NCBI GenBank assembly: GCA_026874595.1
Contig: CM049312.1
Coordinates: 68,354,929-68,418,928, forward strand
Length of the DNA stretch: 64,000 bases
Direction of reading: 5' to 3'
Source: Sipunculus nudus
Lineage: Eukaryota; Annelida; Sipuncula; Golfingiida; Sipunculidae
The stretch's first letter is position 1. Each line of letters begins with the position of its first letter. The notes below the pieces were generated by a model. It saw only the letters and a program-made list of their open reading frames with translations, did no database searches and had not been told where the DNA came from. This document shows positions 3,778 to 41,395 of this stretch, piece after piece. Both the position numbers and the translations under genes were made by a program.

Positions 3778-4041
3778 TCAGGGATTCACCTTTTTCCAAA
3801 GCCCCCAACTTGATTGTTCAACAGATCTGAAATGCAAAGGCTGATGGAACTGCCTTCTCACTACAAAACCATAACTCACATCTGTTCCCGCCAAATTACA
3901 CTGGAGTCGATATGAAACCCTGACATCCGAGTGTTCTGGCACACTGTGCGCCGCACCTGAAGACCTCCCTAGAGTTACCAAGGGTTTCTTTGTTCTTAAC
4001 AACCCGACAGAAGCGGAACCCTTCAAATCTGTTGCTAATAA
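3778..4041 (-). pseudogene. PAN/Apple-like domain exon of lectin unit 1, in-frame stop
   Basis: The exon opens after a good acceptor (TATTATTTTCAG) in phase 1. It encodes a PAN/Apple-like core: RFCRV, then CGAQC, then GCQGF, the Cys-x3-Cys-x5-Cys spacing typical of these small extracellular adhesion or ligand-binding folds. A TAA at 3896-3898 cuts the frame. The same frame continues after it as FGGNRCELW, supplying the expected later Cys-x-Leu, so the stop looks like a lesion rather than a natural end. It lies about 1.1 kb downstream of the SUEL exon of the same unit, and both use phase 1. The paralogous exon at 37606-37826 has no such stop. If the transcript is still made, it would give a truncated PAN domain. 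Confidence 0.7.
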
Positions 4042-5122
4042 CTGAAAATAATAATATACAGAGGAAACGTATATTTACCAATGGGCTCCGTATGTGATCT
4101 GCGTAACACCGAATGCTCTATTTTATATATGCTAGCAGGCTATGAGCATCGTTGTAGAGATTATAACCTGGTCCAGGATACACTGGTGACAAACTTACAA
4201 GTGTCTTAGTTGATGTAAAAGATTCTTTATTTTAACTATAAAGGAGAGGGTATGCAGAGCCCCTGTTTAGGGCTTGGCCCCAAGTTTGTAACAGAATGAA
4301 AGTGCAATTAGACTGAATAGAGTTGCCATGTAATCAAGGCTAAGCAATTACAGTCATTATGCAAATCAGTAGCAAATCAGCTCTGACATTTGAATACACA
4401 AAGTCCAAATTAACTTAAACACCTGCAACTTACATAATATATAACAATGATGAAATACAGAGAGTGAGAATTGTAGTAATAGACTGGCCTTAGTACATTA
4501 CATCGTGACCACTTATTTTATTTTTTAGTTTGGAAAATTGTCAAAATATATTATATGCCAAAATTCAGTATAAAACAACATAATAAGGTTAACAACTAAG
4601 AAATTAAAAAAAAATATTTATTAAGTGAGGTAGATTTGTGTATATTGGCTATAAGCCGGTTTTATGGGTTTTTTTTTTATTATTTATAATAAGTATTTGC
4701 TACGTTATCTTGAATATAATTGTTTACAATCTGTCTGTTGACTCCCCTAATATACCAAAAGCATCCGTTATCCTAACGCACTTCCACTCAGGCGACTAAG
4801 TATAATTACGGGTAAATTGTCTTAACGGGGGGGGGGGGGGGGGGTTCCCGGAGCTTAACGGACCTCTGGGCCGAGTGTTTTATGACAGACGGCCCGGGGG
4901 CCGAGGGGCCGACTGGCTCTGGGGACGAGTGTCTCTGGGGCCGAAAGTTCCTGTTACCGATATATTTTATATACCAATTTTTTTTTTTATATTTCCATTT
5001 TTATATACTCGGTTCCAGTTGCCTACGTTTCATTACTAGTGTATTCCTTGAGAAACTATACTAGAATTTACCAGCTTAAGCAAGTAGGATCTATACATCT
5101 ATACATATCGGTATCTACTCAC
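4042..5122. other. Intron of lectin unit 1 with low-complexity block
   Basis: Intron between the SUEL and PAN exons on the minus strand. It contains a run of about 18 G at 4827-4844, followed by a degenerate GGCCGAG minisatellite to about 4950. The equivalent interval of unit 2 (24.3-24.6 kb) is only about 240 bp, so most of this stretch is either inserted here or deleted there. Confidence 0.5.
4827..4955. repeat. Poly-G tract plus GGCCGAG minisatellite
   Basis: Runs CTGGGCCGAG, GGGGCCGAGG and CTGGGGCCGAA recur over about 100 bp after an 18-base G run. This is a GC-rich island inside AT-rich DNA, possibly a transposon end. I cannot assign a family. Confidence 0.6.
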
Positions 5123-5415
5123 CTTCTGCTCGTTCACAGATGTAGTTAACCTTCAGGTATTTAAATATTCCCTCACACGGGTCTCCGAAATTAAGTGTTG
5201 ATGCGATCGTTGAGCAATCGCTCTTACCATCACAATGCTGCTGGAAAAATGCAATGACGTTTGACCCTGAACAGTGCTGAAGCGCGGATGGATCATCATG
5301 GGGATAGAGAACCATTCGTGTCCGTCCGAACACAGCATACCTTACGAGAATAGTGCTATTCCACGGGCATGACAGGTTTACTGATCTGTTTCTTCACAAG
5401 TCACAGAACATATAT
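5123..5415 (-). pseudogene. SUEL-type lectin domain exon of unit 1, 1-bp frameshift
   Basis: This is a D-galactoside/L-rhamnose-binding SUEL lectin domain exon. The acceptor CTCTATACAG is followed by a start reading ICSVTCEET. A one-base loss near 5375 then shifts the frame into SVNLSCPWNS, a YGR-type box reading VFGRT, CDGKSDC, and the C-terminal signature FGDPCEG...KYLKVNYIC. The donor AAG/GTGAGT is in phase 1. Exon length is 293 nt; 294 would keep the frame, matching a single-base deletion. The domain normally binds rhamnose or galactose on microbial or egg-coat glycans outside the cell. Upstream signal-peptide exons at 6159-6213 and 8802-8865 both end in phase 1; the PAN exon follows at 4041. 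The frameshift makes this copy probably non-functional unless it is an assembly error. Confidence 0.8.
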
Positions 5416-6158
5416 CTGTATAGAGACGACAAGAGTAGACATACAACTCTTATTATGATAAATACAATTATCAAAATATTTATTAAAACTTACCCAAACC
5501 CTTCGGATACAGTGTTCAAGGCATAATTTTTTGTTCGGACATGTAAAGATAATGTACACTATGTCAGGTATACTAAATCTTTCTAAAGTCTGACGAATAA
5601 AATGAACAATTGATATTAAAAATAATATTGTTCCTTTTTTTTTTAGGTTATTTTAAATCGGAAGAATCGAGGTTAATATGACGACGGCCTGCCATTTAGT
5701 TTCCCGAAGGATCCAAAGGCTTTATTTCTTTTAATATATGGGTAATATTTTTTTATATTGGTATATGCAAATGCATTATATTAGATGGTTTTTGCTGAAG
5801 CAGGAGATCGGTATTTTCCCCGAAATCATATAGGTATGGTTCAGATTTTACAAAAAAAAGCAACATAAACAAAACTAAACGCAACGGCTGATTGGAATTA
5901 AAAAAATAGTGTAATATGGAAAGAATGAAAATTAATAGAAATTAAAAGGGTAAAACCAATGTACACGTAAAGGATACTTTTATTAATATATCAAGCGCTG
6001 GTGCACTATAAACCATATCTTTGCAGGAGCTCAAAACCTTCTAGAAGCTCTAAGTAAAAGGTTTCCAATAGGGAAATATGTACACACAAGTAAAAGTTTT
6101 CTTTCTTATTGATTCAAGTTTTGCTATACTAAAATACCTGAAAGGTTTTTACATGTAC

Positions 6159-6213
6159 CTGCCTGTGTACTCTTTGTTAACAAGGCATTAAGGAGAACGA
6201 GGAGAGACGGCAT
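6159..6213 (-). CDS. Signal-peptide first exon of lectin unit 1
   Basis: The 55-nt exon opens with ATG and encodes MPSLLVLLNALLTKSTQA, a short hydrophobic secretion signal, then splits a codon in phase 1 at CAG/GTACAT. It joins in phase with the SUEL exon at 5415. The exon and its upstream 0.6 kb recur, decayed, at 28763-28816, 29477-29526 and 32615-32680, which supports its being a real duplicated first exon. It lies below the length usually scanned for ORFs, and the call rests on start, hydrophobic core, donor, phase and paralogy. Its downstream SUEL exon is broken, so a functional product is uncertain. Confidence 0.6.
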
Positions 6214-6800
6214 GTTCACCTTCTGTATTAACCTCAATAGGCAGTGACTCAATAGGCTATGGCGAATGAGTAAATAATACTTGCGTCAACGTTTGTATAC
6301 GACACAGTAGTTTAGTGCAGAGCAAATACAACAGACTCATCCTTTTGCAAGACAATAATTTATTTATGTGTTTGCATTCATGTTGGACCTGGCTTTTATA
6401 TTTATTACCAGTAAGTTTTGTGAACGTACTATATTTCCATTAGCATTAATAGGCGGACGTCGAAGCCCTACGTTTCAAAGCGTTATCCCTGGGGAAGACT
6501 TTATGTGCTGTGCTTAATGTTTAGGATATCAATTGATCCAGGTGGACCACATCATCTTTATGTATGCTTTATAACTCATATAACCCTTCATGAATGCATT
6601 TTCACATTACTAGTTAATTTTTTCCCTTGATCAATCCTTCAACCAAATATTGATTCTGGAGTAATATTGTACGCGGAAGCTAACTTTTTGTATAAATCAA
6701 TATCTGCGGAAACCTATCCATTTTGAAATTACTACGAAGTTAACAAAACACTCTTATGGTGCACACAAACGATAAAAAAAAAACATTACATGTAGAATAA
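6214..6800 (-). promoter_or_regulatory. 5' module (promoter region) copy 1 of the lectin array
   Basis: This is the upstream flank of the exon at 6159-6213. It contains a GGCTATGGCGAA box near 6256 (an X-box-half-like TATGGCAA motif also seen in other copies), a GTTTGTATACGACAC block and, further up, ATTGATTCTGGAGTAATATT and GGAAGCTAAC...TATAAAT blocks. The same order is found upstream of the copies at 28.8, 29.5 and 32.7 kb. Promoter function is inferred from position. Confidence 0.5.
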
Positions 6801-6923
6801 GACACGGTTTGTTGATTTGGAACAAGTGAGCAAATTGAAAGGCTGGCGCAACTTTCAAGGTACACCTATAGCTTTTGAATTTTTCTCTTTATCCCCTGCT
6901 TAAGATCAACTCGCTTTTTTATC

Positions 6924-7140: not shown

Positions 7141-8800
7141 ATAACAAGAGAGAAAGCTTATGATGCTGCCCTGTCACCTAGACCGAAACCCCGAAACCGG
7201 ATTGGAATTTTGCAGATGTACATTAATATTTGGTTAAGCTGGCATAAAAAATTGAGGCAGTTAATTCCGACAAAAATATTTTAATAGTTTTAAGAAATAA
7301 CTTGTTTTTTAGTGTGAAACTTCTCCGCTTAGCAATCTGCATGTGATTAAATAGTAAGCATGAGAAACTTTGACCTGCATAGTTCTCCACCATTTATGTA
7401 ACAATACCAAAGCAATTTAATGTGACCAGCCAGTTTACCAATGTGTGGTGCGGGCTGTCAAACCTGAATTACCAAGCTTTATCTTACCTGAACCTTTAAT
7501 TTTGAAAATACCTGACCAGCCTGCTAGCACAGGACCAGGGATGTAACAAGACAAACGAGAATTCTGTATCCTGTTTTGCATCCGATTCCAAATTAGGAAC
7601 TAGGCGTCCACAATCTTATGATAGATATGAAAATTGGCCCCTGGGCACATTACAGAAACTTTAGATCATGCACGGAAATAATTGTCTCCTAACACATCCT
7701 CTAGGCCGAATAAAACATGTACTGCAAAGCAGACCATATTTATTATATGGTTACATTCAAGGAGATCGTGCAGTTTTAGATTAAAAAAGCACCGTTTCTC
7801 TTTGATTTCTGAAGAAGATGTGCTTAAGAATCGCTTAGGAATGTTTTTACCTTCGAGTCTAGATTTCTGATAGAAAGAATTAACTATAATGTTTCAAGCA
7901 GCCAAACAATAAAATGCATGATGCTTGCTCTGCAAATATACATACAGTGAAATACATGGCTTGAAAGAATATAAAAATTAGACTTGCGGCCCTACATCAC
8001 ATTCATACAAAGTAAACTTGCATTAAAATGTATATGTATAAATATGTTTGTTTATGGACCAAAATTATTTGGGATGCTAATGATCCATATATTTACCTCA
8101 CAACAAAGACACTGCCTCGTCAGGGTAACAACTTTTTTTATATCTTATTTAGGGCATCTTGTTTATGATACATTGTTCATGTGTAATAAATATATTGATT
8201 ATTATATGCTAGCAATTAAAATAAGTCATAAAATATAACTAATCTGTGCTAAATAATTTGTCAAAACAAGGAAGTCTACTTTCTCCCTAAAACAATGGAG
8301 ACAGGAAACACTTGCGCTTTGTTAATAGGCAAAGGTCACATGCTCCCAGTTTGATGGTGTCGAATCTATCTTTTGTAAAAATATTTTCAAAAATATATGT
8401 TTTAGTGTTTTATATAACGATTGTAATTCTTCATGGAGTTGAATGAAGAACAACCAAATTGTTACATTGGAAATAAACAGGAAATAAAACGATAGAGTTA
8501 AAATTGATTTGACCTCCTCCCCTAAAATGGAAATGTGATGTTTATTCCATTTAAAATTCTCTTAAACGTTTTAGTAGTAAAAGTTTTTTTTTTTTTCCAA
8601 ATGGATTTCAAAACTAATAGGTCTTTAATGCCACAAGATGGATCCGTGTTGTTTTTTTTTGCATTTAAATGCGGGCCATGTCCTCATATTAGCATTTTTT
8701 ATATATTTCATAAACAAAATGCTTCCAACAAGGAAGAGCGAACAGGCAAAATTAATGAGTTATTTCCATAATTGACATAAAAATAATTTAGCAAAACTTG
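7140..8800. other. Interval without recognised genes
   Basis: Holds one arm of a direct repeat (7345-7555). Otherwise AT-rich sequence with no supported coding frame. Confidence 0.4.
7345..7555 (+). repeat. Direct repeat, copy 1 (partner 8955-9135)
   Basis: Shares with 8955-9135, in the same order, AGTAAGCATG, GTAACAAT, TTTAATGTGAC, GAGCTGTCAAA/GGGCTGTCAAA, ACCAAG, TTACTGAGCCTTTAA/TTACCTGAACCTTTAA and the GGCTGCTAGTACAGGACC box (GCCTGCTAGCACAGGACC here). The duplication is old and local. Confidence 0.6.
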
Positions 8801-8801
8801 C

Positions 8802-8865: not shown

Positions 8866-8954
8866 GATGTGACTGTTTTCTTCCTACAGGTCAGCCTTTG
8901 GAGGATCTTGCAACGTTATGCGTAATCAGACTTGCGTTTGTTTGCGGCTACCAC

Positions 8955-9135
8955 AGTAAGCATGTAAACATTGTGCTGTATTATTATCTCCCTTTTAAGT
9001 AACAATGACAACGCCCTTGAAATATTTAATGTGACAAGCCGATGTGGTACGAGCTGTCAAATAGGATTCACCAAGTTTTTTTTTTCTTACTGAGCCTTTA
9101 AATCAATAAATACCCAACCAGGCTGCTAGTACAGG
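8955..9135 (+). repeat. Direct repeat, copy 2 (partner 7345-7555)
   Basis: See the block order given for 7345-7555. It lies just upstream of the possible first exon at 8802-8865. Confidence 0.6.
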
Positions 9136-9169
9136 ACCTCCGTCCCGCTGATATTTTGGTCTCTTGTGA

Positions 9170-13869: not shown

Positions 13870-16390
13870 CGATGAAGCAAAGTGTGAAGGTCGACTGAGA
13901 CTGACATTGCCGATGATATCAGACTATAAATCCCACCTGTACATCCAGGTGCCCTTAGGCATTATATTCCGCACTGAGTGACCGTTGGATTATTTCCACG
14001 CGTTTGATTGCTTTTGTCCATACGAAAGTGGCGATTTTCACCAGATCTGGGATCTGTAAGAGCATTAGTAATTAGAAAAAAGATACATAAGAGTATACTT
14101 TATATTATTATTTAATACCAAAGTCACACATGAAGGTTAATTGCTTTTTCGCAATGAGATTCTAATTCATCAGGTCCTTGGGTAAAAAAAAAATTGTTGG
14201 TACCTTTAGCCAAAGCTAGTCAATGTTGAACTTATTCGCTTCGAAACGACAATGTGTTTTTTTAATATTTTTATCATTGCCTCCGCCAAGACAATATATA
14301 ATACATAATCAAAAGAAAATTTTCTATTTATAAGATCATTTTCAGGTGTATTATGTAACACATCGTCCAAATATAACCTTCACACGATGTCACATCGTAG
14401 TTCATTGCAAACATACGTTAATTTTTTTCTACCTTTGATATTACTGTAACAATATCGATGAAATGATTTTGACAACAAAAACATATACATACACATCAAA
14501 TTCAGACATGGCATTAATTTTTAAAACAATGCATGCTTTGCCCTTTTCCTTTGCAAAATGCCGTCTATGTGTGCAGATGCAAATTGGATCGAAAGATAAA
14601 ATAATTGTGTATATGATACTAAATTCCCCATCCAAAACTAACGTTGCCACTACATTGATCAGTAATTTTGTTTTATCCTCATACACCGACATGTGTCTCT
14701 AAATATTATATTTCGCGTGTATATATCCTTGGAATATCATACATACAAAATGTTATTTTGTATCTTAATCAGTTCTCATCGATATCCCCTAAAAGTACCA
14801 TCTATTTTTTTAACATTAAGGCAGGCTCTATGTTTACCTAATTCAACATTATGAAATAACTCATAAATATATATGTTACTGGATCAGAACTGTAAAACTA
14901 CTATTAAAGGGATTGCATTCATGGGTTCACATTGCATTTATTATGGATAGCTTAAACATCATTTAAATTGTGATAAAGCTTCCATTGGACATTGAGTTTC
15001 TGAAAACATGAATAATTCGTATATTAGATTAAAGTGGTGTCAAAGAACGTTGACATACGGCAAAAATAAATCCAACGCAATCAAGACTCAAGTTATTTTT
15101 ATAATCGTTTGAAAATGGCAACACCTGAAAACCCTGTAAACGTTTATTTTCATATTCTTCCCAATGTGCACCATTTGCATATATTAAAGCTGCTAATTCA
15201 CCTACCTTTGTAAAAGAATTCATGTGATTTCTGTCTTCTTCTGTGTATAAATAAATGATCCAGGGATTAAAGGGCTTCGTGAAGGATGTATGAACTTATT
15301 TATCATCAACTTGTTTGTAAACACAGCAATGTTGACAAATAGGAAAACATGAAACCTACTGTGGTAGGTTCCATTTATGCAAAGGTGAAAAGGTCACATC
15401 TTGCAAAACGCAATTTGCAAAGCTCTGGCTTATCGGACTTGCTGCCAGATGCCCTTGTTGAATTTGTTTTTATTATTCTGGCACGCCTCAACATATTATA
15501 AACACGTCGATTTAATCAAAACAGGCAGTCTGTGAGCGGTGATATCCACGTTTTCTGGCCCATTTAAATAAAAGTCCCAAGGGAGTACCTTTAGTTTATA
15601 AAAGTCAGATAGGTGATCGGGCAAGTAATCTACGACGCCGTTATCATGGAGCTCTAGGGGCGACGTTCAGAATGGTGATCCTCATCTGAACAGTTTTGCT
15701 TTGCCGCAGAAACTGTGTCGGTGCCTCATCTGAGCGTTTTACCAGTCCCCCTTTTCCTAAAATATTAATGATGTACATCTGTTTACTTTCAGGAATATTT
15801 CACAGATAGTTTTACTCTATTAATATAAATTTTATCATGTTGCATGTTTTTTTTTCTTACACAAGGAATAAAACTTCTAATATTAAATTTCTAAATTATT
15901 TAATTTGACAAGCCAACTGGATAAAAAAGTTTATCAAAAAAGGAACAAAATGTATCTCTAATTTTTTCTTTGAATTCTAGATGAACATCGTTATATCAAG
16001 TGCAAATGTCATTCAGGTTTAATTAATAACGTTATGGTTTAGGTACTTCTCAGTTTAATTTAAGTATACCTAAACTGTCTTGATATGATTCATTGCAATC
16101 AAACAAAATACCATCTTCTCAACATGAACTGAAAATTTCTTGAGAATCAGTGTTCTCGTGACACATTTTTAAAACATAGTACTATTCTGGTAGTATGAAG
16201 GGATAGAAATCCATTTAGTCTATTTGGTGTGCTTTAAGATATTCTATTAAAACCCAATGTTAAATTATGGGTTGGAGTTTATGATTAAAATGAGTTTCAG
16301 GACTTAAAGACCTGTACAAAAAGACCTGTTCTTAATTCATAGTCGCCCTTGATGGCTTACACCTGCACTGTGCCATATTAATAGCTATAT
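13870..16390. other. Interval downstream of lectin unit A SUEL exon
   Basis: Expected to hold the following exon(s) of unit A on the minus strand, but I find no PAN-like cysteine pattern. A 15029-15223 minus frame looks protein-like but matches nothing I recognise. Confidence 0.35.
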
Positions 16391-16395
16391 CATAC

Positions 16396-16674
16396 CTGTA
16401 CAGTCATAATTAACTTCTAGGTATTTTCTGACTCCATAGCAAGGGTCACCTAATAGACTAGCGGGTTTTCCTTCTGAACAGCTGTTTTTGTCGTCACAAA
16501 GCTTTTGTAACTTCGTCAAAGTGCTGTTGGCTGAACAATCAGTTCTTTCTTTACCAAGACCCTCACAAAAGTTCTTCCCATTCCGTCCATAGAAAGCGGA
16601 TTGAATTTGAACGACGGAGGATGATGGGCACGCAAGCCTGAGATCTTCTTCATCACAAAACACAGCAGCTTTAA
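16396..16674 (-). CDS. SUEL lectin domain exon of unit A (intact)
   Basis: The 279-nt exon runs from acceptor CCTCTCACAG to donor ACAG/GTATGA, phase 1 on both sides, and is fully open. It encodes a complete SUEL (rhamnose/galactose-binding) lectin domain of about 92 residues: FCDEEDLRLACP at the start, AFYGRNG (the YGR sugar-site motif), CDDKNSC in the middle, and GDPCYGVRKYLEVNYDC at the end, the classic DPC...KYL motif. Eight cysteines are present, the usual number. It joins in frame to the signal-peptide exon at 21696-21756, giving a secreted lectin whose mature part begins near VKAAVF. The intron is about 5 kb and contains a Helitron-like element. A following exon is implied by the donor but was not found. 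This is the best-preserved lectin copy here. Confidence 0.85.
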
Positions 16675-19360: not shown

Positions 19361-21237
19361 TTAGCTCAGATGACTTTCAGTCGATAGCGATCACTCTTCG
19401 CCCGGCGTCTGTCTGTCCGGCTGTCCGGTCGTTAACAGGGCACAAATCGTAACCGCTGGACCTAGAATCTTTTAACTTGTCTTCCAGGGAGGACCATAAA
19501 AATCTCTTTGGAAACCTGAAATTAGGTCTCTGATACCCATATTGTCCGAGCTATGGGTCTCAAAAGTACCCCCCCAGAATAATAAAAAAATTGACACAAA
19601 AGCTCAAGTATCTGAATAACCACTGCATTGATCACCATGATTCTTTTCATGAATATTGATTATGGAGGGTTCCATCAGTTCCTGCAAACTGATGGCGCCG
19701 TCTGTATTTTTCTAATTTTAACGATTTTTTTTTCTTAATGTTTTATATTTTCAAAGAAGCTGTCATCTGTTTACAGGGCACAAGTCAATACCGCTGGATC
19801 TTAAATCTTTTTATTTGACATCCAGGGAGGTCCATGAAAAGTCTCTGTGAACACTTGAAATTAGGTCTCTGTTACCCATATCATCTGAGCTATGGGTCTC
19901 GAAAGTAACCCCAGAATAATAAAAAAAATTGACACAAAAGTTTCAGTATCTGAATAACTTCCACAATTCACCATGATTCTTTGCATTAATAATGATCATG
20001 GAGGGTTCCATCAATTCCTGCAGACTGTTGGCGCCAACAGTATTTTTTCTATATTTTACGAATTTTTTTCTTCATTTTTGATATTTTCAAAGAAGCTGTC
20101 ATCTTTTTACAGGGCACAAAGCATAACCGCTGGACCTGGAATCTTCTAACTTGACATCAAGGGAGGTCCATGAAAAATCTCCTTGGAAACCTGAAATTAA
20201 TTTCCTGTTACCCATATTTCGTGAGCTTCTGGGCTCATAAATACCCCTCAGATTAATTAAAAATTTGACACAAAAGCTTGAGTATCTGAATAACTACTCC
20301 ATTGATCACCATGATTCATTGCATGAATACTGTTCATGGAGTGTTCCATCAGTTCTTGCGGACATGTTGGGTCACCTGTAATTTTTCTAATTTTTTACAT
20401 TTTTTTTCTCTGTTTTTGATACTCTCAAAGCTTTCATCTCTTAACAGTGAACAAATCATAACTGCTCGACATGGAATCGTCTAACTTGACATAAAGGGAG
20501 GTCCATGAAAAGTTTCCTTGGAAACCTGAAATAAGGTCTCTGTTACCTATATCCTCTGAGCTTTTGGCTTATAAGCACCCCTCAGAATAATTAAAAATTT
20601 GAAACAAAAACTTGAGTATCTGAATAACTACTGCATTGATCACCGTGATTCTTTGCATGTACATTGGTCATGAAGTGTTGGATTAGTTCCTGCAAACATG
20701 TGGCGCCACCTGTATTTTTTTATATTTACGAATTTTTTATATGTTCAAAGAAGCTGTCATCTGTTAACAAGGCACAAAATGTAACTGCTGCACCTGGAAT
20801 CTTCTAACTTGACATCAAGGGAGGTCAGTAAAAAGTCTCTGTAGAAACTTGAAATTAGGTCTCTGTTACCCATATCCTCTGAGCTTTTGGGGCTCATATG
20901 TACCCCTCAGAATAATAAAAAAATTGATACAAAAGCTCAAGTATCTGAATAACTACTGCATTGATCACCATGATTCTTTGGATATATATTGGTCATGGAG
21001 TGTTTCATTAGTTCCTGCAGACTGATGGTACTATTCTACCAGTATTTTTCAAATCTATATGCATTTTTCTTCTATTTATGAGACCTTCAAATGCAGTGGT
21101 CATCTGTCGAAAAGCCCACTGAAACCCATTTGTTAGGACTCACAAAATTCATGATTGTTTGGCATTCTGGCAGTCATTTTGCTCATTGTTCATCATTACT
21201 TTAATTCAGTTGAGCGTCAAGGCCCATGGGCCACTAG
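19361..21237 (+). mobile_element. Helitron-like non-autonomous element with five tandem units
   Basis: The element opens with a TTAGCTCAGATGACTTTCAG hairpin-type head and a CGCCCGGCGTCTGTCTGTCC run. Five direct units follow, starting near 19435, 19773, 20109, 20444 and 20766, each about 322-341 bp. It closes with the perfect palindrome GGCCCATGGGCC (21221-21232) followed by A and CTAG with T after it: a 3' hairpin plus CTRR end, as in Helitrons. Tandem-repeat cores between such ends are known for bivalve 'pearl'-type and other non-autonomous Helitron elements. No Rep/helicase is encoded. It lies in intron 1 of lectin unit A, in the opposite orientation to the gene. Confidence 0.65.
19435..21107 (+). 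repeat. Five-unit ~335-bp tandem repeat
   Basis: Each unit contains ACAGGGCAC-like start, ACCGCTGGACCT, GGGAGGTCCATGAAAA, GAAATTAGGTCTCTGTTACC, AATAATAAAAAAATTGACAC, TATCTGAATAAC, ATTGATCACCATGATTC, CATGGAGTGTT and AAGAAGCTGTCATCTG blocks. Units differ by several percent and a few indels, so the expansion is not recent. Confidence 0.85.
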
Positions 21238-21695: not shown

Positions 21696-21756
21696 CCGAG
21701 ACCACTGCGACTGAGAACGAAGCCGTAAAAACAAGTAAAGTCAACAGGTTCAGCAT
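21696..21756 (-). CDS. Signal-peptide first exon of lectin unit A
   Basis: The 61-nt exon encodes MLNLLTLLVFTASFSVAVVS, a strong signal peptide, then a phase-1 G at donor CGG/GTAAGT. With the TT that opens the exon at 16674 it restores a Val codon and an open frame into the SUEL domain. The first residues match the paralogous exon at 41336-41395 (ML-LL--LVFT). Too short for routine ORF calling; supported by start, hydrophobicity, donor, phase match and paralogy. Confidence 0.75.
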
Positions 21757-24264: not shown

Positions 24265-24342
24265 CTTTTCTTTCGGCCAACTGATAATCTCTTGATTGTT
24301 CTCAAGGGTTTTTGTTCTTAGCAACCCCACAGTTGCTAATAA
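24265..24342 (-). pseudogene. PAN-like exon remnant of lectin unit 2
   Basis: The acceptor ATTATTTTCAG/TTATTAGCAAC is nearly identical to that of the unit 1 PAN exon at 4041. A short in-frame deletion removes the RFC core and an early TGA follows. The flank above it (24343-24450) matches 4042-4150 block for block (CACCGAATGCTCT, GCAGGCT). Confidence 0.7.
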
Positions 24343-24582
24343 CTGAAAATAATTAAGATATAGAGGGAATTTATATGTGCGAATGGGCTTGGTACGTGAT
24401 CTTTGTGACACCGAATGCTCTGTTTTAAATATGAAAGCAGGCTTTAAGCATAATGACCAAAAACACATAGTTGTACTTTTTTTGTTACTTTTACCGTCGT
24501 GCGCAGGTAATGTTTAAATATCTTGTCATATCACTTCGACTCACCGTTTATGTGTTCACTTTTGTGTGTTGCCTGGTAACTT

Positions 24583-24860
24583 TCATGTATTTATATATTC
24601 CCCTACACGGGTCTCCCATAATGTGGTTTGATACGATGGTTAAGCAATTGGTCCTACCATCACAAAACTGCTGGAAATATGCCAGAACGTTTAGTTCTGG
24701 TCAGTACTGGATTTGGATGGATCATGATGACGACAATTCGTCCATTCGCCTCATCCATATGCAGAAGACTTAACAAGGAGTCCACTATTGGAAGGATATG
24801 ACAGATTACTGCTCTACCAAAACAGATCACAGTAGATTCATCTGTAAAGAGCAGACCCAC
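24583..24860 (-). pseudogene. SUEL exon remnant of lectin unit 2
   Basis: Aligns base for base with 5150-5420: GTATTTA-ATATTCCC, ACGGGTCTCC, GATGGTTAAGCAAT, ACCATCACAA, CTGCTGGAAA, GGATGGATCATGATG, ATATGACAG. Many substitutions and small indels destroy the cysteines and the reading frame. The plus-strand reading frame through it (24471-24773) is a shadow. Confidence 0.8.
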
Positions 24861-28430: not shown

Positions 28431-28762
28431 ATTTTAACTATTAACGATCGAACGCAATATAGAAAACGGTACACCTATTGTCATGAGTTCACACATGTGG
28501 CTTTGTTATGACTGACTGCCGTTCCTGAGCTGGCGTCATTCCGAATATTCATGTGGCACGGAACCGATCATAGCCGACCGCGGGCAGGGTGAAACCAAGC
28601 ATCTTAGCGCTCTGATTAGACGCGGTTTTAATTAATTTAGAGCGGTAATAACGACTGCACACAGGGTCAGCAGTTTCAAAAACAATTAATTTACGGTATA
28701 ATATGGTCAAATTGCAGTTTTATTTACGCTGTTCATGTACTTTAATGGTTTTACATGCACTT

Positions 28763-28816
28763 GCCTGTGTACTCACACATGACCAAAGCAATATGAAAAG
28801 CGAGGAATGACGGCAT
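28763..28816 (-). pseudogene. Signal-peptide exon copy of lectin unit 2
   Basis: Homologous to 6159-6213: ATGCCGTC, TTCCTCG, GAGTACACAGGCA and the following donor region align. A one-base insertion changes the phase (ends in GGCAA/GTGCAT, phase 2), so it cannot join the SUEL remnant in frame. Confidence 0.65.
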
Positions 28817-29470
28817 TTTTATCTTGTGTACTTAGTGTAGCATTTCCCTCCACACGGTGAAAAAGTGACACTGTTTGAAATTTCCATTTGCCATTATTTT
28901 GTTAGAGTGAAATATACAACACCTGTATAAATTAATATCCGGTAGAGCTTCTATAGCTATTTGCGTCCATATTTGTAAAAGCACACTAGTTTTAGCAAAG
29001 CCTCCACAAGATAATTGTTGTTTCTTAGATAATTATTTATATATAAATATGTGTTTGTATTCATGTCGGAAGTGGATAATATATAATATCTGTCAGGTAT
29101 GGCGTACCTTTCCTCTAGGATGAACAAGCGGGTGCTGAACTAATACTAATACTTTTTCACGGAGAAAGATTTATGTTCTATATTTATTCCTTGGAATGAC
29201 AATTGAACCATATAGTCCAACTAATCACGATGTTTGGTTTAGAACCCTTTATCTCTGTATGAATAAATTTCCACTCTGCTAGTAAAGATGTTGAAGAATC
29301 CAAATCCTTCTGTACAACGGAAATTCTCTGACGTTTGTTCTTAATTAATTCCTTTAGCAATTTTCAAAACAAATATTAACTCTGGACTAATATTTTACTT
29401 TGAAGCTTTTTCTAATACCAATATCTGCGATTCACGTTCATCTTTCTTAGGAATTCAGACAGGTAGATGT
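28817..29470 (-). repeat. 5' module copy 2 (promoter region of unit 2)
   Basis: Aligns with 6214-6800: TTATTTAT-TA...ATGTGTTTG-ATTCATGT, TAGCAATTTTCAAAACAAATATT and ACTCTGGACTAATATT near the far end. Related also to 29527-30205 and 32681-33350. Confidence 0.55.
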
Positions 29471-29476
29471 ACTTAC

Positions 29477-29526
29477 CTAGGCACTCCTCGTTGTCAAGAC
29501 AACCTTGAGAATGGCCAAAACGGCAT
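29477..29526 (-). pseudogene. Third signal-peptide exon copy (decayed)
   Basis: The minus strand reads ATGCCG, then CATTCTCAAGG and a clear donor CTAG/GTAAGT, aligning with the 6159 exon. A deletion brings TGA in frame after ten residues. No SUEL exon follows before unit 2, so only the 5' module was duplicated. Confidence 0.55.
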
Positions 29527-30205
29527 ATTAAACTTCTATATATATATCAGCGATAGACTGATAGTGATCAATGGTACAACTTTGTGATTTATTTGTGTAA
29601 AGGTATGAGACATTTACAAACCTTACGAAACAGTGTTTCCATAGCTATGGCAAATATATTGTTGTGGCCAACGTTTGTATATTACACCGTAATTCAATCC
29701 TACAATAGGGTACGATGCTTGTTGCAATCAATGTTTCATTTATTTTTTTTTTCTGTCTATATCGATTTTTTATCGTGATCTAATATTTCTCAGTTGTAAA
29801 GTTAGCATACGAAACAGCATTTCCCCTGGGATTGATCAGCAAATGGCAAGCCTACATAATAAAAAACGTCCTCCAAAAGGATAGAATTTACGTGTTGTGT
29901 TCAACGCAAAGGCTGACAATTACACCCGAGGAACCATTTCATTTTTAATATATCTCTATTGTACGTAACCTCCATATCAATGCATATCAGCACTGCCAAT
30001 TCAGGTTATAGACTCATTTTGCAACAGGGTAATTCTCTGATATGCTTGTTTGAATCGATTTATGGAGCAGTCATCTAAATGAATATCTGTTCTTGAATAA
30101 TATTTAGTATGGAAGCCAACTTTTTGTATAAATTTGTATCAATCAATGTCTGCGAAAATATTACTAATTCCAGCATACCCGGGAGTAAGCTTTATACTTC
30201 CATTG
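29527..30205 (-). repeat. 5' module copy 3
   Basis: Shares with 32681-33350 long ordered matches: AATAGCTATGGCAAATAT (CATAGCTATGGCAAATAT here), GTACGAAACAG/ATACGAAACAG, GCGAGCCTACAT/GCAAGCCTACAT, CTCTGACACGCTTGTTT/CTCTGATATGCTTGTTT, TGGAAGCCAAC and TATAAATTTG. This is the best-conserved module pair. Confidence 0.7.
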
Positions 30206-30209
30206 CACG

Positions 30210-31027
30210 CACGCGCGCTTAAACATAGGTATATATTTATATGTGTGGATGAACATATGCATGTGAGTGACTAACCGAGCCTCTGTTCATGAGTGGTAAA
30301 TTAATTGTTTTCAAAATAGAACTTAGTTTTATTTTCATAAACGTTATCATATAAAAGCACGCACTAGTCCTATCTCCCTACTGGTATCACCGTCACGTCT
30401 ATGTCTATGTATTAATCACGTTACAAATCAGGAGTCACATATATGATATGGTACAGCAGTAACGGTATTCGCAGTGTATTTTTGGCTGACGTGTTTTAAC
30501 GATGGATAGTTTTTTTAGAAAGAAAATTACAACCTATTATTACAATGAGTCACCAGTGCCTTCAAATTAATTCCTGCACAACCTCTCCTATACTGCTTCT
30601 TTGATTAACTGATAAACTTCAAAACCTAAGAGTGAACATGAACATTAATAGCAGTAATCACTGAAGGAAGGGAATCGTGTATTTACAACCGTTTCTATAC
30701 AAGAAGAATATCAGTTCCCGCATGTCGATAATTTACATTTGTCTGTAACATATGACCATTTTAATAATGGACAAAGATCAAAGGTGTTGACAGACAGCGA
30801 TTGAAAGGAAATAAAGCATGACTTGGATTGCCTTGCTTAGTTCAGATTACATGAGACATTGGCCATGAACCTGCTAGAACCAGGTAACGGACAAGCGAAG
30901 TATTACCCTAAAAAAATGGGCCCCAAGACAGCTTAATTAAGCCCGTTGGGCCCTCTGATAAAAAGGTGCATATATGTAAGTTAATAAAGCAGCAAAAAGA
31001 AAATTTCCTCATTTTCAAGTATTTTCT

Positions 31028-32614: not shown

Positions 32615-32680
32615 AGACTTACCTACTCACTTGCTCCTTGTCAAGGAAATCGTGAGAATGGCCGAAGAAGTTAAAACCAT
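32615..32680 (-). pseudogene. Fourth signal-peptide exon copy
   Basis: The minus strand opens ATG and encodes MVLTSSAILTISLTRSK before a stop. Two donors (GCAA/GTGAGT and GTAG/GTAAGT) lie at the end. The first would give phase 2, the second passes a stop, so neither keeps the family's phase 1. Aligned to the 29477 copy through GGCCATTCTCA and CCTTGACAA. Confidence 0.5.
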
Positions 32681-33350
32681 CTTCTGTATATATATTGCTT
32701 CTCTCGATTCTTCGAAAATGATACTGATCACGACTGCCACTTGTAATTATTTGTAAATGTAAAAAAAAATATAGGCAGTGTTTCAATAGCTATGGCAAAT
32801 ATTTTGTGTGTATGTTACCATGTGTTTACGACACTGTATTTCAACACCAAGAAATAAGGAAACAACAGGCTTGATGCTTGTCGCAAGATAATGTTTCATT
32901 TTCTATTCATGATCTTATATTTCCCGTGATCATAATATAATATTTCTCCATTATTAAGTTAGTGTACGAAACAGTATTCCCATGGGATAAATCAACTGAA
33001 GGCGAGCCTACATGATTTTCATGCTATGTTCAACACATTGGTTAACAATCACAGCCACGGGACCATTTTAATTTTTGTCTATGTCTATATACCTGTATCT
33101 TCATATCATTGCATATCCGCTCCGGTAATTTAGGTGATGATGACTGAAAATCATTTAGTAACACAGTTAATCTCTGACACGCTTGTTTTAATCAAACCTG
33201 GAGCAATCAACAAAAATATATCGACTCTGGAATAATTTTTCACTTGGAAGCCAACATATAGTATAAATTTGAACAAGTCAATGTATGCGGATTCAGCAAA
33301 ATTAACATCACATGGAGGCAAAAAAACTTTAGAGGTTCCCTTGTCTTAGA
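32681..33350 (-). repeat. 5' module copy 4
   Basis: Ordered matches to 29527-30205 as listed there, including the AATAGCTATGGCAAATAT box and GTACGAAACAG. Confidence 0.7.
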
Positions 33351-33534
33351 CTTTTCGTCAAGAAATAGTATTAAATTTATGTTCAAGTTGTCATACATAT
33401 GTTATGCCCCATGTCAAGTAGTCCCAAATCGAAATGGAGTGCTGCAGATGTATATCTATATATTAAGAACTGGAAAAGACAGCATAAAAAATTTAAGTGG
33501 TTACCTCCACCAAAAATATTTAAAAAATGTATGA

Positions 33535-33962
33535 ATGACAAACAGAGCCTTAAACAAAGTACTTAAACGTAGAATTTATTATAGCAAACATCAACTAAAG
33601 GCCTGCACTGATCCTATCTCAAGACTGGTTTCAGCTTCACTTAGGTCCTTTACCTCACAGTTTTTAGTCACACCAGTATGTAGGACTGTGACTTATAGTG
33701 ATAAGTGTTTTAGTTGTTACGCCCCGAAACTCTGGAACAGTTTACCTGTCAGCATCAGGAATGCTGGCCCTATTCCCACTTTTAAGAAACAACATACAAA
33801 ATTCTTTTTTTTTAACAGGCTTTTAATCTGTAATGTAGCGTTATTTTTAGGCTCCTTTCTTTTTAACCATGTGTGCTGTCAACTTTTAAATGTTTTTCAT
33901 ATATTTTATGTGAAGCGCTCTAGGGCTAATTACATTAGATAAGTGCGCTATACAAATGTTGC

Positions 33963-34500: not shown

Positions 34501-34512
34501 CCTATCAAGGAG

Positions 34513-34562: not shown

Positions 34563-34566
<4 letters not shown>

Positions 34567-35437
34567 ACGGAACCTAATATCAACAGACCACGTAGTCGTG
34601 ACGAGTATAAATTTGGTTATGGAGATTAAAAAAATCAGATTCTGTAACACAAGGCAGCGTGAAATATCGAGGGAAAAGAATAAATATGTCAGTGTTTTTT
34701 CTTACAAATAATTATAATTTATTCTTAAAACAATCCTAACATTACAATACACTAAATCAATACATTTACACAGTATAACAACAGTACAACAGTAAATCAA
34801 TACAAGTATATAAATAAAGTGTAAAGTACCTGGATACCACCATTGTCACAGCGACAAAAAGTCTTTTAAAGCATATAATCCAGATGAACAGTTCACATAA
34901 ATCTTCTCAGAGAATCACAGTCCAGTTCATTTACAAAATCGATGTGTTGTAATCCAAAAGTGAAGTTCTGATAGTGATCCCAAAGGCAAATTGAAGATCA
35001 AGTAAAATCTGTTACAAATTCGAAGAAAAGCTATAACTGTCGCAATTTTAGGAAAAGGTCCACAAACTGAATTACACTCTTTTGTGTCCGCTGGAATATA
35101 TCTCTCCTCTCTCTCTCCGCTCTAAAACACAGCCCCTTATTTATAACTTTTCACCTCAAGCCGAGAAATTTCCATTTCCCGAACAATCTAATGAACCCAT
35201 AATACACACGTTACAGGAAACATCGAGAACAACGAACGCTTTATTTCAACATATCAAGGTTCACACGTGGGCCGGCCCGGCCCGGCTCGGCCAGGCGAGA
35301 AAGCCCTTGACGAGCATGACTGCTGTGTTTACACGTCAGACCCAACCGTGGGCCGGGCTATGCCGCCATACAACGGACAACGCTAGCGCCGCACACACAC
35401 ATGTAAGACTGCTGCATACAATAAAAGAGACATATCT

Positions 35438-35559: not shown

Positions 35560-37600
35560 ATTTGGTCCCATCCGAGTTCAGAGGGGAGATGTGTCCATTT
35601 TTGAAGGGTGTTTTAAAAGTTGAATCCTTTTCATATTTTATATCATATCATTTTATGATTTAACCTCGTGTCATTTAATGAATATATGCTCATAGCAACA
35701 TGTGAGCCTCAGCTATCAGCGCGGTGTTCGTTAATGCGTCCGGTTATGGTCATTGATTCTACAAGGTCCCCATTATCCTCAAAGCCCTGTATACTGTGGA
35801 TTCATAACTGTTCGCTGGGTTTTTATCTTCGTGGAATTCGTGGGTGACTTTTATCAACGAAATTAAAATCCCAACGATCATAAAGTTTAAAAGTCAATTT
35901 TTTTTAAAGTCCGTCGTCCCTGTGTGCACATTGAGATATGACATCGTGATTGCCCGCTGTTACCTTCCATGCTATCAGTGGTATTGGTCAATAAAAACGC
36001 ACAGAAAGCGATATGTTGCCTATAAATAAAAAAACTGAATTAATATTATTTTGTTCGGAAAGATATTTAGTTCTTACTCGGGTTGAGTAAAAAAAAATCA
36101 AGATTCTAGTTGTGTCGGACTTACAAGTTGTACTAGTGACGGTTTGAAAGTGCGTCTGCACTACCTTATACTGGTTGGTGTGGACTTGCGCTCTCTCTCT
36201 CTCTCTCACACACATTATCTCGCTAAAAGTCGTTGTTAAAGGTCATTTTGCACTGCTCGTCGTATTTAATGGTTTGTTAGAGTAATGTCACTTTTTAATT
36301 GAATAAACATCTGTAGACACTGATCCTTTAATTATTCATATTAGATGCCGGCAATGACAGGCTAAGCCGACTCGCCGCTGATGTGGCCGCGTGACGGAGT
36401 AACGGCCTCTGCGTGGTTTCTGGCGCAAGTACCGAATGATGTTGGGAACAAACAGATAACTGCACCCTGTAAACAAGGCAACACCACCATTTACATGTAG
36501 CTGTATCCGGTTAATTACCGGCCAAACGGTAACGAAATCAGTTACATTTTCCAAGCAAAGAAATGAAAACAAGGTGATTCCTTGAAATGTAGTCCCTGCC
36601 GCCCTACAGTGCCCAAACAGCAGCGTTTCGGAAAGTGAGTTTGTGTACATATGGAATCATGTTTTCCTGCCGCTTCTATGATGGATGGGTGTTTCTCATG
36701 CATAGCTCTGTTGTCATATGTAGCTAATATTTAATTGACTGTAAGGATATTAATGATATCAGCATAATCATAAAATATGAAAGAAAACTACTTAGTCTAT
36801 TAAAAAATGAAGAGTTTAACAGTAAAAATATTGACACGTTTTAATATAAACTTTCATTCAAATATTTAAAACTATGTCTAAACGTTTACATACATAGGTG
36901 TATCACATACATATCGTGTATGCAGCTCCATGTGCCTGTGGTAATGTTCGCAGATTGCTCAAATGAAATACACCAGATAATCAGTCAATATTTAATAGTG
37001 TCAAAAGTAAAACCATCCACCTAGGCATCAAGCCCAAATACAACAGCTTGAAAAGTGAATGGTAATACAGCGATAAAAAGATGCCATACGTATGTATATG
37101 ATACATATACAGCAAACCGTTTGTACTGGTTCTGGGGCAGATCAGTCACCTTTCAGGGGAATACCCCATCACTGACGTACACATGGGGAATTTCCATGTC
37201 TGTTGCGATGGCTATCCTCGATATACAAAACAAACAAGCAAATGCATGCAATTGAACGGTAAATTAATCTGCGTATTACTTATAATATTAAAGATGACCA
37301 TGACTTATAATACTCCAATATGTTGTTTTAAATAAAAAGGTAGCCCAACGTTGTGATCACCTGAGATACCATTACATCCCATTGATTGGTTAACCAATGG
37401 GAAACTATGACTCTACACACGTGTATGGGTTTAAACGACTGACATATAAGAAATAATTGATCTCGCTACCCAGAATACGCTGTGCCTGAGAATCAAAACT
37501 TTTATTTTTTTTCTTTTTGGCCTTTCAAAATTGCCTCTTTAATAGATTGTTGACAAATCTTTTATGCTAACAATGAGAGATCCATAACTTAAAACCTCAA
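35560..37600. other. Interval without recognised genes
   Basis: Contains a short (CT)n at about 36191-36207. The 36336-36650 minus frame and 37055-37255 plus frame carry no family features. Confidence 0.4.
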
Positions 37601-37605
37601 CATTG

Positions 37606-37826
37606 TTAGAATTTGTATTGTACAGGACGCGGAATCTCGCAGGGAGAATTTAGATTATATTTGATCCCGTCAGATGGCACTAGAGTCAACGTAAATCCAC
37701 GACATCCAGGCATTCTGGTACATTGTGTACCGCACTTGATGATCTCCCGATAATTATTCAATGGTTCTTCATGCTGGTCCACACGGCAAAAGCGGTTATT
37801 TCCAAATGCCTCGCTCATTTTTGAAA
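37606..37826 (-). CDS. PAN/Apple-like domain exon of lectin unit C
   Basis: The open frame encodes a PAN-like module: NNRFCRVDQHEEPLNNYRE, KCGTQC, GCRGFTLT and PCEI, then a natural stop at 37606. It is collinear with the unit 1 PAN exon (RFCRV, CGAQC, GCQGF) without the in-frame stop. At the position where unit 1 has the acceptor TTTTCAG, this copy reads TTTCAAA; the nearest AG (AAATGAG) would start in phase 2 rather than phase 1. Either another acceptor is used or splicing is impaired. It probably ends a secreted SUEL-PAN protein with the exon at 38834-39121. Confidence 0.6.
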
Positions 37827-37829
37827 GCA

Positions 37830-38527: not shown

Positions 38528-38560
<33 letters not shown>

Positions 38561-38830
38561 ATGTTTTATCGCAGACTCTTTCACGCATGAAATTAACATA
38601 CATGAGAGAAAATATACTAATTATGGTAAGTTTATAATCATAATAAGCTAATTGTGTCCATATGATAACCACATTTTTTCTGTAACAACTACATTTATTG
38701 TAGCTGATAAAGTTTATTTCTCACATATTTCACCACTCAATTGTTTTGTGAGCCCAATAATGAATATGATAATATTACAAGACCCTTAGCACTTGGAGAG
38801 ACCTTACGCCTTCCAATATTCTTATTTACT
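37830..38830. other. Intron of lectin unit C
   Basis: Between the SUEL and PAN exons. Contains the palindrome CCGCCCTCAGGGCGG near 38350 and an (AAT)n at about 38534-38557. A protein-like minus frame at 38064-38333 is not recognised. Confidence 0.4.
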
Positions 38831-38833
38831 AAC

Positions 38834-39121
38834 CTTTTGTTCCTTCACAGGTAAAGTTAACTTCTAAGTATTTCTTCTCTCCGTAATACGGATCGCCGGC
38901 TAGGCTGTTTGGTGCTTTTGCGGAGCAACTACTCTTGTCATCACACAGCTGTTGGAAATATGTTAAAACATTGACCGCTCCAAAGTCTGAATATTGACCA
39001 CCAGCCCGAAGGCATGGGACCATGCTTTTCAGGCCATAGCGAGCAGACCTCACACGAAGTTTACAGTCGAACGGGCATTCAAGCATCGCGGTTGTATCCT
39101 CAATGGTCACAACAGTTTGTT
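38834..39121 (-). CDS. SUEL lectin domain exon of unit C
   Basis: The 288-nt exon runs from acceptor CATCTCTCCAG to donor AAAG/GTTAGT, phase 1 at both ends, and is open. It encodes TVVTIEDTTAMLECPF, then SARYGLKS (YGL in place of the YGR sugar-site motif), CDDKSSC, and GDPYYGEKKYLEVNFTC, where the usual GDPC cysteine is Tyr. DPY-type variants are known among rhamnose-binding lectins, but the changes together suggest altered or lost sugar specificity. The frame stays open for another 50 codons upstream, which looks like intron read-through. The signal-peptide exon at 41336-41395 lies 2.2 kb upstream. Confidence 0.75.
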
Positions 39122-39124
39122 CTG

Positions 39125-41330
39125 GAGAGATGTCATTGGGTATAAGACATATGAAAATAGTAAAAACGCATATACTGAAAATATAAATATCCAGGGTAGG
39201 GAAGTGTTTACTATTTAACTGCGGTACGCAAACCCTGCGAGGAAGATATCTGAAGATGTTTACCAGAAAAATCATCCTGGGTTTTGTGATATTGATACCC
39301 TAGATTATACACACATTCGCATTCATGACAATGCGGAACGTCCATGAAAGTTTGAGGGAAGTATTTCCAGGCCCTATATATTATCAGATAAGGTCACGTG
39401 TCTGAGGCATCAGCAAAAAGTTTTCCTTCGACTGCTTGGCATGGGATACATCAAACGCAAGCTGAAAACCTTTAATTTTATTTTGTTCCAGGAAAATAGG
39501 AGGATGTGTATGTCATTTTACCGAATATGGTAGCCTCTAAAACTCGCCACCCACGTGGTCACCTGTCAAGCATGTTCACAGAAACACAGAAACACAAAAC
39601 TTTCAATCCCCTCCAACACACACAATCCTGCTTTTTATTTTATTTATTCAAAATTCTACTGTCACCTACCTACTATAAATAGTGTATGTAGTCTTAAATA
39701 TTTTTTTGTATTGAAATTTTCTGCTGCCCTGTACTATTCATTACCCTATTCACTGCCTTATACAGGAATGACCTCGCCTGACCCGGAATAGATCACTCTA
39801 TCAAACAGTTAGCCCCATCTTTCTAGGAAACATTTGGTGGCGTGACTTCATAGTCCCTGTGTCGTCACGATTCAGACTCCACAGACAGGCTCTCCGTTAC
39901 ATGTTAGAGTTGTCAACAGTGCTGTCCGTCCCCATAAACCTCTCATCGCAGGGCCATAAACGCTTGGATATTCACAAATGTTTAATCACTTGGAGTGTTC
40001 ACACTTAAGACAAATTTCAATCAAAGCTACAAAAGCTCTCTACAGATATACTATGGACACTCAAACACTTGATCGACTGAAAACAATATCTTTCATTTTG
40101 CACCGGGCTTAATATGAATTTGCAGAACTTACTAGAATTACATCGACCAATGCCTGGATTTTAATGTTTGCCATGTTACTATTTCCTAAACCAGTTGTAT
40201 CTATGATAAATCATTGAAACATGTACTGTTACTTCTGTCCGGCGGGACTAACCAAGGAAGCACAGAAGCTTTGACAGGTGCCAAGAATAACTCATATACA
40301 GAACCATGATAACTTATACTCGGAGATCATAAGTCCGTGCGCCGAGAGAGTTTTGCTCAGACACTTTTGTATAAAGAAAAATGGAATAATAGCGTGTGAT
40401 AAAACATGTACTATTGTAAATGAAGGTGTACCTTAATTGTTTCTAAACCATACACCATTAATTGAATGAGAGAAAAATAATGCTGGTTTCTGTAGTGGGT
40501 CAGCCATTTTGAGTATTAATTTTTCTTCAAGAAAGTGTATCTAACTTTATAGCAAGATACACTTTGATGGAAGAGGAAAATATTTAAAAATTCTATTTTA
40601 AAACTTAATGATACATGTTTAACTCACGCTGTGAGAGCCAAAAATCAGACAAGCGAGAGCGGGTGTCTAAGTCTAATCAGTCCAATGAGAGCGGGTGTCG
40701 CATGTTTGAAATTTAGCTGGATGTAAAATGTAATGCCACGCTCTCAATGCTCTAATTACAAACCTGGTGGTCAAACCAAGATAATCTCGCGATACAAAGC
40801 AGCGGGTAATAGCAAGGGAGTTCCGCTGTGTGAGGAGCGTATTTTAAGTTGTTAATTATCTTATTATCTGTTCTATTTATATTTTTCACATGTCCTCGTT
40901 GTGGTACTCGAAGTAGGGAGTAGAGGGCGCTACCGTTTCCACAATATAAATATACCAAAAATAATTAAAACTAATAATTTTTTTCTGACTATCAGACTTT
41001 ATTATATAGGATGAAAGGCACATTATTGTGTCTGAGCACTCAAATTATTCTTTTAAATAAAGCAAATAAAATTTTGTGAAAATTCAAAAGTATAGAATAT
41101 GCTACATTATCCCTTTTGTTACTATAATGCTCTCATAATGACAGGTTGTTTTACTTCCCCCCCCCCAACAAAAGTGTACCTATCGAAGATGCCTATATCA
41201 ACAGTGATGTGTTGCTTCCCCGGTCACACGCCCTCTCATTTTCTTATCTGGTGGAATCTTAGATCTGCCCCCCCCCCCCCCGCCCCCCTATGAATTCCAT
41301 CCTACATCCCTGGCTAGGCAATGACAAAAA
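39125..41330. other. Intron 1 of unit C or intergenic
   Basis: No coding frame supported. The 39555-39791 plus frame has no family features. Confidence 0.35.
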
Positions 41331-41335
41331 CTTAC

Positions 41336-41395
41336 CTGAGCACACATTGACAAGAGCGCAAAAGTAAATACAAGATATTTCAACAAGTGCAGCAT
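41336..41395 (-). CDS. Signal-peptide first exon of lectin unit C
   Basis: The exon encodes MLHLLKYLVFTFALLSMCAQ, a clear signal peptide like the unit A exon, and ends at a perfect donor CAG/GTAAGT. Its length is 60 nt, one less than the unit A exon, so it ends in phase 0, whereas the SUEL exon at 39121 needs phase 1. Either one base was lost here, an unseen exon lies between, or this exon serves another downstream exon. An A-run precedes the start codon. Confidence 0.55.

Follow-up and report, generated by a model that had tools for sequence, protein, structure and literature searches.

What is left of a family of secreted lectin-like genes when its copies have multiplied side by side and then begun to fail, and can any of them still encode a protein? 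This question is raised by a stretch of 64,000 nucleotides from Sipunculus nudus (assembly GCA_026874595.1, contig CM049312.1, positions 68,354,929 to 68,418,928 of the forward strand), referred to below as the window, which has 36.6% GC, an intron-like gene structure, microsatellites and a long terminal repeat (LTR) retroelement. Between 3.8 and 41.4 kb its minus strand carries five diverged copies of one gene, here called units A to E, arranged in tandem and all on the same strand. We consider it likely that they represent a mostly dead birth-and-death cluster of SUEL-lectin-like genes, with unit B as a possible truncated survivor. The cluster is made up mostly of pseudogenes of a known domain family, and its domain plan is already on record. 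A first-pass annotation, made from the letters alone, had described a decaying tandem array of secreted SUEL-PAN lectin genes; as an array of secreted SUEL genes that carry a second domain rich in cysteine this description stands, and the decay has gone further than it claimed.

The plan of the gene is compact: a single SUEL exon lies between a short putative signal-peptide exon and a third exon, likewise short and rich in cysteine, which is recognizable in A, B, C and E. The signal exons of A, B and E were judged by hydrophobicity and donor only. In addition to the five units noted before there is a sixth copy, C2, which consists of promoter and first exon only (30259-29464, minus strand). 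The pieces of the array are the following:

3818-4041, minus strand: putatively PAN/apple-like third exon of unit A, with an internal TAA at 3898-3896; its TGA at 3820-3818 aligns with the TGA of unit E
5123-5415, minus strand: SUEL exon of unit A, 293 bases, with a frame break between Cys1 and Cys2; 60.9 bits to PF02140 for the open part
6159-6213, minus strand: putative signal-peptide exon of unit A, MPSLLVLLNALLTKSTQA, with a weak phase-1 donor (GTACAT)
13902-14053, minus strand: remnant of the putatively PAN/apple-like exon of unit B, with an in-frame TAA at 13964-13962 and the first Cys lost
16396-16674, minus strand: SUEL exon of unit B, open, 279 bases, phase 1-1; 72.9 bits to PF02140 and matches to solved structures
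21696-21756, minus strand: putative signal-peptide exon of unit B, MLNLLTLLVFTASFSVAVVS, with a strong phase-1 donor (CGG/GTAAGT)
24279-24342, minus strand: third-exon remnant of unit C, partly deleted, found with the third-exon DNA profile
24545-24841, minus strand: SUEL exon of unit C, with frame changes and an in-frame stop; 32.3 bits for a 42-residue open piece
28723-29429, minus strand: promoter/first-exon copy of unit C; the aligned donor reads GCAAGT, and an inner phase-1 GT donor is listed
29464-30259, minus strand: promoter/first-exon copy C2, with an ATG at 29526 and a stop after 10 codons
31542-31670, minus strand: first half of the SUEL exon of unit D, found with the DNA profile; the second half is absent
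32617-33401, minus strand: promoter/first-exon copy of unit D, with a stop after 17 codons, ahead of the aligned donor
37597-37820, minus strand: putatively PAN/apple-like third exon of unit E, with one Cys changed and a TAA two codons before the presumed ancestral TGA
38834-39121, minus strand: SUEL exon of unit E, open, 288 bases, phase 1-1; 38.6 bits to PF02140, with Cys1, Cys4 and Cys7 changed
41336-41395, minus strand: putative signal-peptide exon of unit E, MLHLLKYLVFTFALLSMCAQ, homologous to that of B, one base shorter and with a phase-0 donor

The pieces of unit B would join unaltered, from the signal exon (21756-21696) over its phase-1 donor into the SUEL exon (16674-16396) and, again in phase 1, into the third exon from 14053. 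Both open SUEL exons, those of B and E, are multiples of three. The phase 1 of the earlier claim holds at the two B junctions and at the first donor of A; the donor of E is in phase 0. Aligned with each other, the A and E third exons end alike in TGT-TGA, which is taken as the ancestral stop (in A presumably the TGA at 3820-3818) and by which the ancestral protein would have had about 20 + 95 + 75 residues. The first intron of B, 5 kb long, contains a tandem repeat of 336 bp in 4.8 copies (19431-21028), of which a diverged inverted copy is found at 1160-1461.

How firmly are these pieces related to each other and to known domains? The curated cut-off of the Pfam SUEL family PF02140 is 31.4 bits; A (open part), B and E all lie above it with 60.9, 72.9 and 38.6 bits, and C passes it narrowly with its 42-residue open piece (32.3 bits). 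With a protein profile built from the SUEL domains of A, B and E, unit C scores 45.7 bits. Unit D has no SUEL match in Pfam and reaches 2.0 bits with the same protein profile, which is within the random range (best of 20 first-order, that is dinucleotide, random windows, 7.4); only a DNA profile built from the other four units recognizes its SUEL half, at 13.9 bits and an E-value of 3e-4 (random best 3.3). With these matches the five-unit minus-strand SUEL array of the first-pass annotation is confirmed. A DNA profile of the A and E third exons also recovers those of B (18.7 bits) and C (15.2 bits; random best 3.4), and finds none for D.

The relationship extends beyond the coding parts. A and C share a DNA block of 1087 columns that covers intron and SUEL exon (E 1e-74), and a second one, 82% identical over 122 columns, that runs from just upstream of the third exon into its start. 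The third exons of A and E match at E 2e-13, a promoter/first-exon block is common to A, C, C2 and D, and the homologous blocks are collinear between units. The best partner of the B signal exon is that of E, with a score of 35 versus at most -18 at all other ATG starts (1254 examined on the minus strand, 1286 on the plus strand). On both strands outside 3.8-41.4 kb there is no further convincing SUEL or PAN-like copy except a PAN exon on the plus strand, and no SUEL exon belonging to C2 was found. Viral contigs searched for relatives gave 15 pattern matches, none of them confirmed, and an NCBIfam search of six stretches gave no match.

Can any of the copies still be read through? In none of the five SUEL units does the frame stay open from the signal exon through SUEL and the third exon, where A, B and E were judged on the joined exons and C and D by their lesions. 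Unit A had been regarded as intact; as an intact reference it is rejected, for the frame breaks in its SUEL exon and a stop lies in its third. Joined at the main acceptor it ends 12 residues in, and its SUEL length of 293 bases is no multiple of three. The spacing between Cys1 and Cys2 is 29 bases in A, 26 in C and 27 in B. Unit A falls short of the eight cysteines of the domain: Cys3 is missing, and Cys1 is absent from the SUEL frame. So does E, which has lost Cys1, Cys4 and Cys7; a 2011 review describes Cys4 and Cys7 as a bonded pair in known rhamnose-binding lectins (RBLs; PMC3269628). As its first exon is one base shorter than that of B, the donor of E falls in phase 0 and E joins out of frame. 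The use of another exon phase by design was considered and rejected for a one-base difference, which is preferred because the two first exons are homologous. At its third exon E has AA where the acceptor of A has AG.

The unit that reads furthest is B, the only one to continue from the signal peptide through SUEL (143 residues) before it meets a stop in the third exon. All eight cysteines of the four disulphides are present (8/8), and the 143-residue product scores 71.6 bits for SUEL. Dead members are seen here among tandem copies on the same strand, and birth-and-death, as the first-pass annotation proposed, is the best reading of their staggered lesions, although the window holds no complete copy.

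If these genes have died, did their exons drift as freely as their introns? For A and C, with the exon taken as 5119-5416 in this count, 203 of 293 exon columns are identical (69.3%) and 447 of 647 columns of the preceding intron (69.1%), which corresponds to a divergence of about 0.40 substitutions per site. Compared with all intron columns pooled (480/698, including 51 columns after the exon) the Fisher p is 0.94. There is no sign of exon protection in these identities, and since the exon is as diverged as the intron, both A and C have drifted. Aligned between A and C, the exon shows seven gaps, none of a length divisible by three. The identities of the other pairs (A-E exon 0.632, flanks 0.621 and 0.616; B-E exon 0.561, flanks 0.643 and 0.623; A-D exon 0.675, flank 0.605; C-D exon 0.664, flank 0.609) were not used for this comparison, because the alignment of their introns is weak and identity is inflated when gaps are permitted freely.

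B and E, provided that they date back as far as the A-C split, were probably constrained for longer than A and C, since under drift simulated at A-C rates the SUEL exon rarely stays open (1 of 4000 runs for B, 4 of 4000 for E), a result that depends on the intron gap rate. This dependence is one of several points that weigh against the picture of a long-dead array: with substitutions only, B stays open in 11% and E in 12% of runs, and at one-eighth of the drift, gaps included, both do so in about 35%. Gap events are fewer per base in the A-C exon (7 in 293) than in the intron (31 in 647), and the ratio of nonsynonymous to synonymous substitution rates (dN/dS) over open codons is 0.51; given both values, some constraint on this exon may have been lasting. 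Every pair with a finite estimate has dN/dS below 1 (B-E 0.29, A-E 0.36, A-D 0.86), with dS large for the older pairs; the B-E and A-E ratios are in line with longer constraint on B and E but rest on such large dS. Splicing offers ways around several lesions: in A, splicing to an inner AG would keep the frame from 5380 and yield a short open SUEL of 60.3 bits that leaves out Cys1 and its Glu, alternative donors exist for C and D (in D a phase-2 donor immediately ahead of the first-exon stop), and E may splice at a later AG. The stop of B sits in a possible last exon, so that the gene could be alive. Cysteine variation is known from working RBLs as well (PMC3269628), and all of the evidence comes from one genomic sequence of one species.

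Would a product of the array still bind sugar? Binding of rhamnose and galactose by mouse latrophilin-1 requires the Glu that follows the first Cys and the Lys of loop 2, and even a change of this Glu to Asp abolishes or dramatically reduces it (PMC2430599). The positions compared on this basis are the Glu after Cys1, the Tyr of YGR, and the Gly and Lys of the DPCxGxxKYL loop. Unit B, by structure alignments, has Asp in place of the Glu and keeps the other three, so that even the word 'lectin' is doubtful for B; the same change is common in receptor RBLs (PMC2430599). All four residues are kept in E, which has lost Cys1. In A the Tyr has become Phe, and the Glu lies outside the SUEL frame. Judged from its sequence, B may make a 143-residue truncated SUEL protein, from which normal sugar binding is probably absent.

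And is the third exon a PAN domain, as it had been labelled? Of the two domains expected in Pfam, SUEL was matched and PAN was not: neither PF00024 nor PF14295 matches the third exons of A, B or E at E up to 5, and the label in its plain form is not confirmed. Several features nevertheless point toward an apple-like fold. The cysteine pattern C-x3-C-x5-C-x-G-F is of this kind. Kallikrein, factor XI and MIC4 are apple-domain proteins, and all six matches of the E exon among solved structures are to kallikrein or factor XI (E 0.82-8.9); a three-row profile of the exon has two matches, NSD2 (E 0.16) and MIC4 (E 0.58). Compared with the neighbouring exon that Pfam does call PAN, the profile gives P 0.0018 over 22 columns, versus 0.47 for one SUEL control. 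That the exon is another small cysteine-rich module, neither PAN nor apple, seems to us rather unlikely. The silence of Pfam and the unrelated NSD2 as top structure match would fit such a module; the cysteine pattern, the uniform kallikrein and factor XI matches, MIC4 as one of two, and the resemblance to the neighbouring PAN exon are contrary to it, as is the fact that SUEL with PAN is a combination already listed (PMC3269628). The exon is best described as PAN/apple-like, with the PAN label itself below significance.

The neighbourhood of the array contains a second gene of similar layout and a mobile element:

49591-50088, plus strand: open exon with a middle domain, 498 bases, entered in phase 1
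50892-51148, plus strand: open last exon, PAN_1 at 38.7 bits (Pfam), 257 bases, entered in phase 1
54122-59901, plus strand: LTR retroelement, LTRs 93.7% identical

The first two lines describe a plus-strand gene at 49.6-51.1 kb that has the layout of the array with a different middle domain between phase-1 introns. Its exon at 49591-50088 has no convincing Pfam match and no match among solved structures, and a simple scan found no first exon for the gene. The open pieces of the retroelement follow the order SCAN-type gag, integrase, reverse transcriptase, and an integrase ahead of the reverse transcriptase, together with SCAN, presumably places it close to Gmr1-like elements. SCAN occurs in over half of the Gmr elements of frogs (PMC4131045). 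Between units D and E, at 34563-34849 on the minus strand with pieces to 35269, lies a diverged partial LTR copy that is 80% identical over 292 columns to the LTR of this element. Nine of ten other open frames have no convincing match in Pfam; the tenth is the integrase tail of the retroelement (E 5.1e-06, just below its cut-off). A further open frame at 33535-33939 (plus strand, 135 residues) has no Pfam match and resembles what we take to be the tail of a LINE reverse transcriptase. Other local duplications are found at 46830-48071 and between 7351-7536 and 8953-9138.

Which other explanations could account for this locus? B, perhaps together with A by way of the inner acceptor, could be a living gene for a short secreted SUEL protein that has no working tail, and the rest pseudogenes. 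We regard this as possible but doubtful; it overlaps with our preferred explanation, which allows for a B that may still be alive. It would make sense of the strong signal exon and donor of B, the open SUEL with 8/8 cysteines, the fitting phases, the stop in a presumed last exon, the 71.6 bits of the 143-residue product and an exon that survives simulated drift at A-C rates in 1/4000 runs (11% with substitutions only), and it has a precedent in type V RBLs, which are single-domain proteins that act as homodimers (PMC3269628). It has to live with Asp at the required Glu, a third exon that has lost its first Cys and contains a stop, and a first intron of 5 kb that contains the 336-bp satellite array. 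A related thought, which we hold to be improbable, is that the locus swaps modules: exchangeable recognition domains would sit between a signal exon in phase 1 and a PAN-like last exon that stays constant, with SUEL in the minus-strand array and a Pfam-unknown domain in the plus-strand gene at 49.6-51.1 kb, and B would be a live remnant whose SUEL has abandoned sugar binding and taken on another role.

An active immune or gamete-recognition lectin cluster that diversifies under selection, a role the first-pass annotation had suggested and for which nothing in this analysis speaks, appears very unlikely. The rhamnospondins of Hydractinia, duplicated modular RBL genes thought to serve immune recognition (PMC3269628), are a precedent, and a galactose-binding-lectin orthogroup is listed in a bivalve gene-family table (PMC8382680). 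In the array, however, dN/dS is below 1 in all finite pairs, no member is complete and sugar-binding positions are changed. We give hardly any credence to the idea that the genes are intact and their breaks are errors of sequencing or assembly. Several lesions are small length differences, as this would predict. It leaves unexplained the in-frame stops that both A and B have in their third exons, the altered acceptor of E, the altered donor and partial deletion of C and the half exon of D; moreover, A and C fall into the same Cys1-Cys2 frame class (29 and 26 bases, versus 27 in B), and the adjoining plus-strand exons, 498 and 257 bases long, are open.

The history that we favour, that of a SUEL-lectin-like cluster largely lost through birth and death, would have begun with a gene for a small secreted protein, in which a signal exon, one SUEL/rhamnose-binding-lectin domain and a PAN/apple-like third exon were separated by phase-1 introns. 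Its product most likely bound galactosides or rhamnosides on a surface, as other secreted SUEL proteins do, and the disulphide-rich tail may have added a protein- or glycan-binding contact. Several rounds of tandem duplication, probably through unequal crossing over, would have given two subgroups that can be told apart by their first exons, B/E and A/C/C2/D. The copies would then have died one by one: A and C appear to have been freed of constraint long ago, as do C2 and D, judging by their wrecked state, and B and E seem to have kept an open SUEL exon for longer, though E now loses the frame from its first exon to its second and B stops in the third. An array of this kind displays how a secreted SUEL family may expand and afterwards decay, one copy after another, with an internal clock in the divergence of introns and exons. 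It also carries a warning: a count of lectin genes that relies on profile matches would take in clusters of this sort, though most of the matching copies are broken.

How does the array compare with known systems? Its SUEL fold is familiar. The B domain matches sea-urchin SUL-I (5h4s) at E 1.3e-44 across three SUEL domains (best single domain 4.2e-16), and further matches among solved structures are salmon CSL3 (2zx0) and CSL2 (9vwi) as well as latrophilins. With SUL-I, CSL3 and CSL2 the array shares the SUEL fold, by sequence, and a putative signal peptide. Secreted RBLs mostly contain two or three SUEL domains in tandem (PMC8350385, PMC3269628), whereas the array has one SUEL with a PAN-like tail, in copies that are all broken. 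The RBL domain of latrophilin (2jx9) is, like that of the array, a single SUEL joined to other domains, but latrophilins are large membrane receptors and nothing similar is seen after the SUEL exons here. Short proteins with a single SUEL are described from rotifers (PMC8878817).

Closest in plan are the PAN-bearing RBL proteins, which combine SUEL/RBL and a PAN module in one protein. The first-pass annotation had not recognized SUEL with PAN as a named plan; the 2011 review names the PAN module among the domains combined with RBL domains (PMC3269628), so that the gene plan is not new and the notion of an unreported one was rejected. The array differs from these proteins in a PAN-like exon that fails Pfam and in copies that are all broken. 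In extracts of other papers found for SUEL together with PAN or apple, no SUEL-PAN gene is described. The rhamnospondins of Hydractinia resemble the array as modular RBL proteins that are secreted and owe their diversity to gene duplication (PMC3269628); they differ in their partner domains, which are thrombospondin repeats, and in being expressed. A similar expansion of lectin-domain fusions is that of the C1q and galactose-binding-lectin proteins of Crassostrea virginica (PMC8678459), where the partner is C1q instead of PAN and at least one member is expressed.

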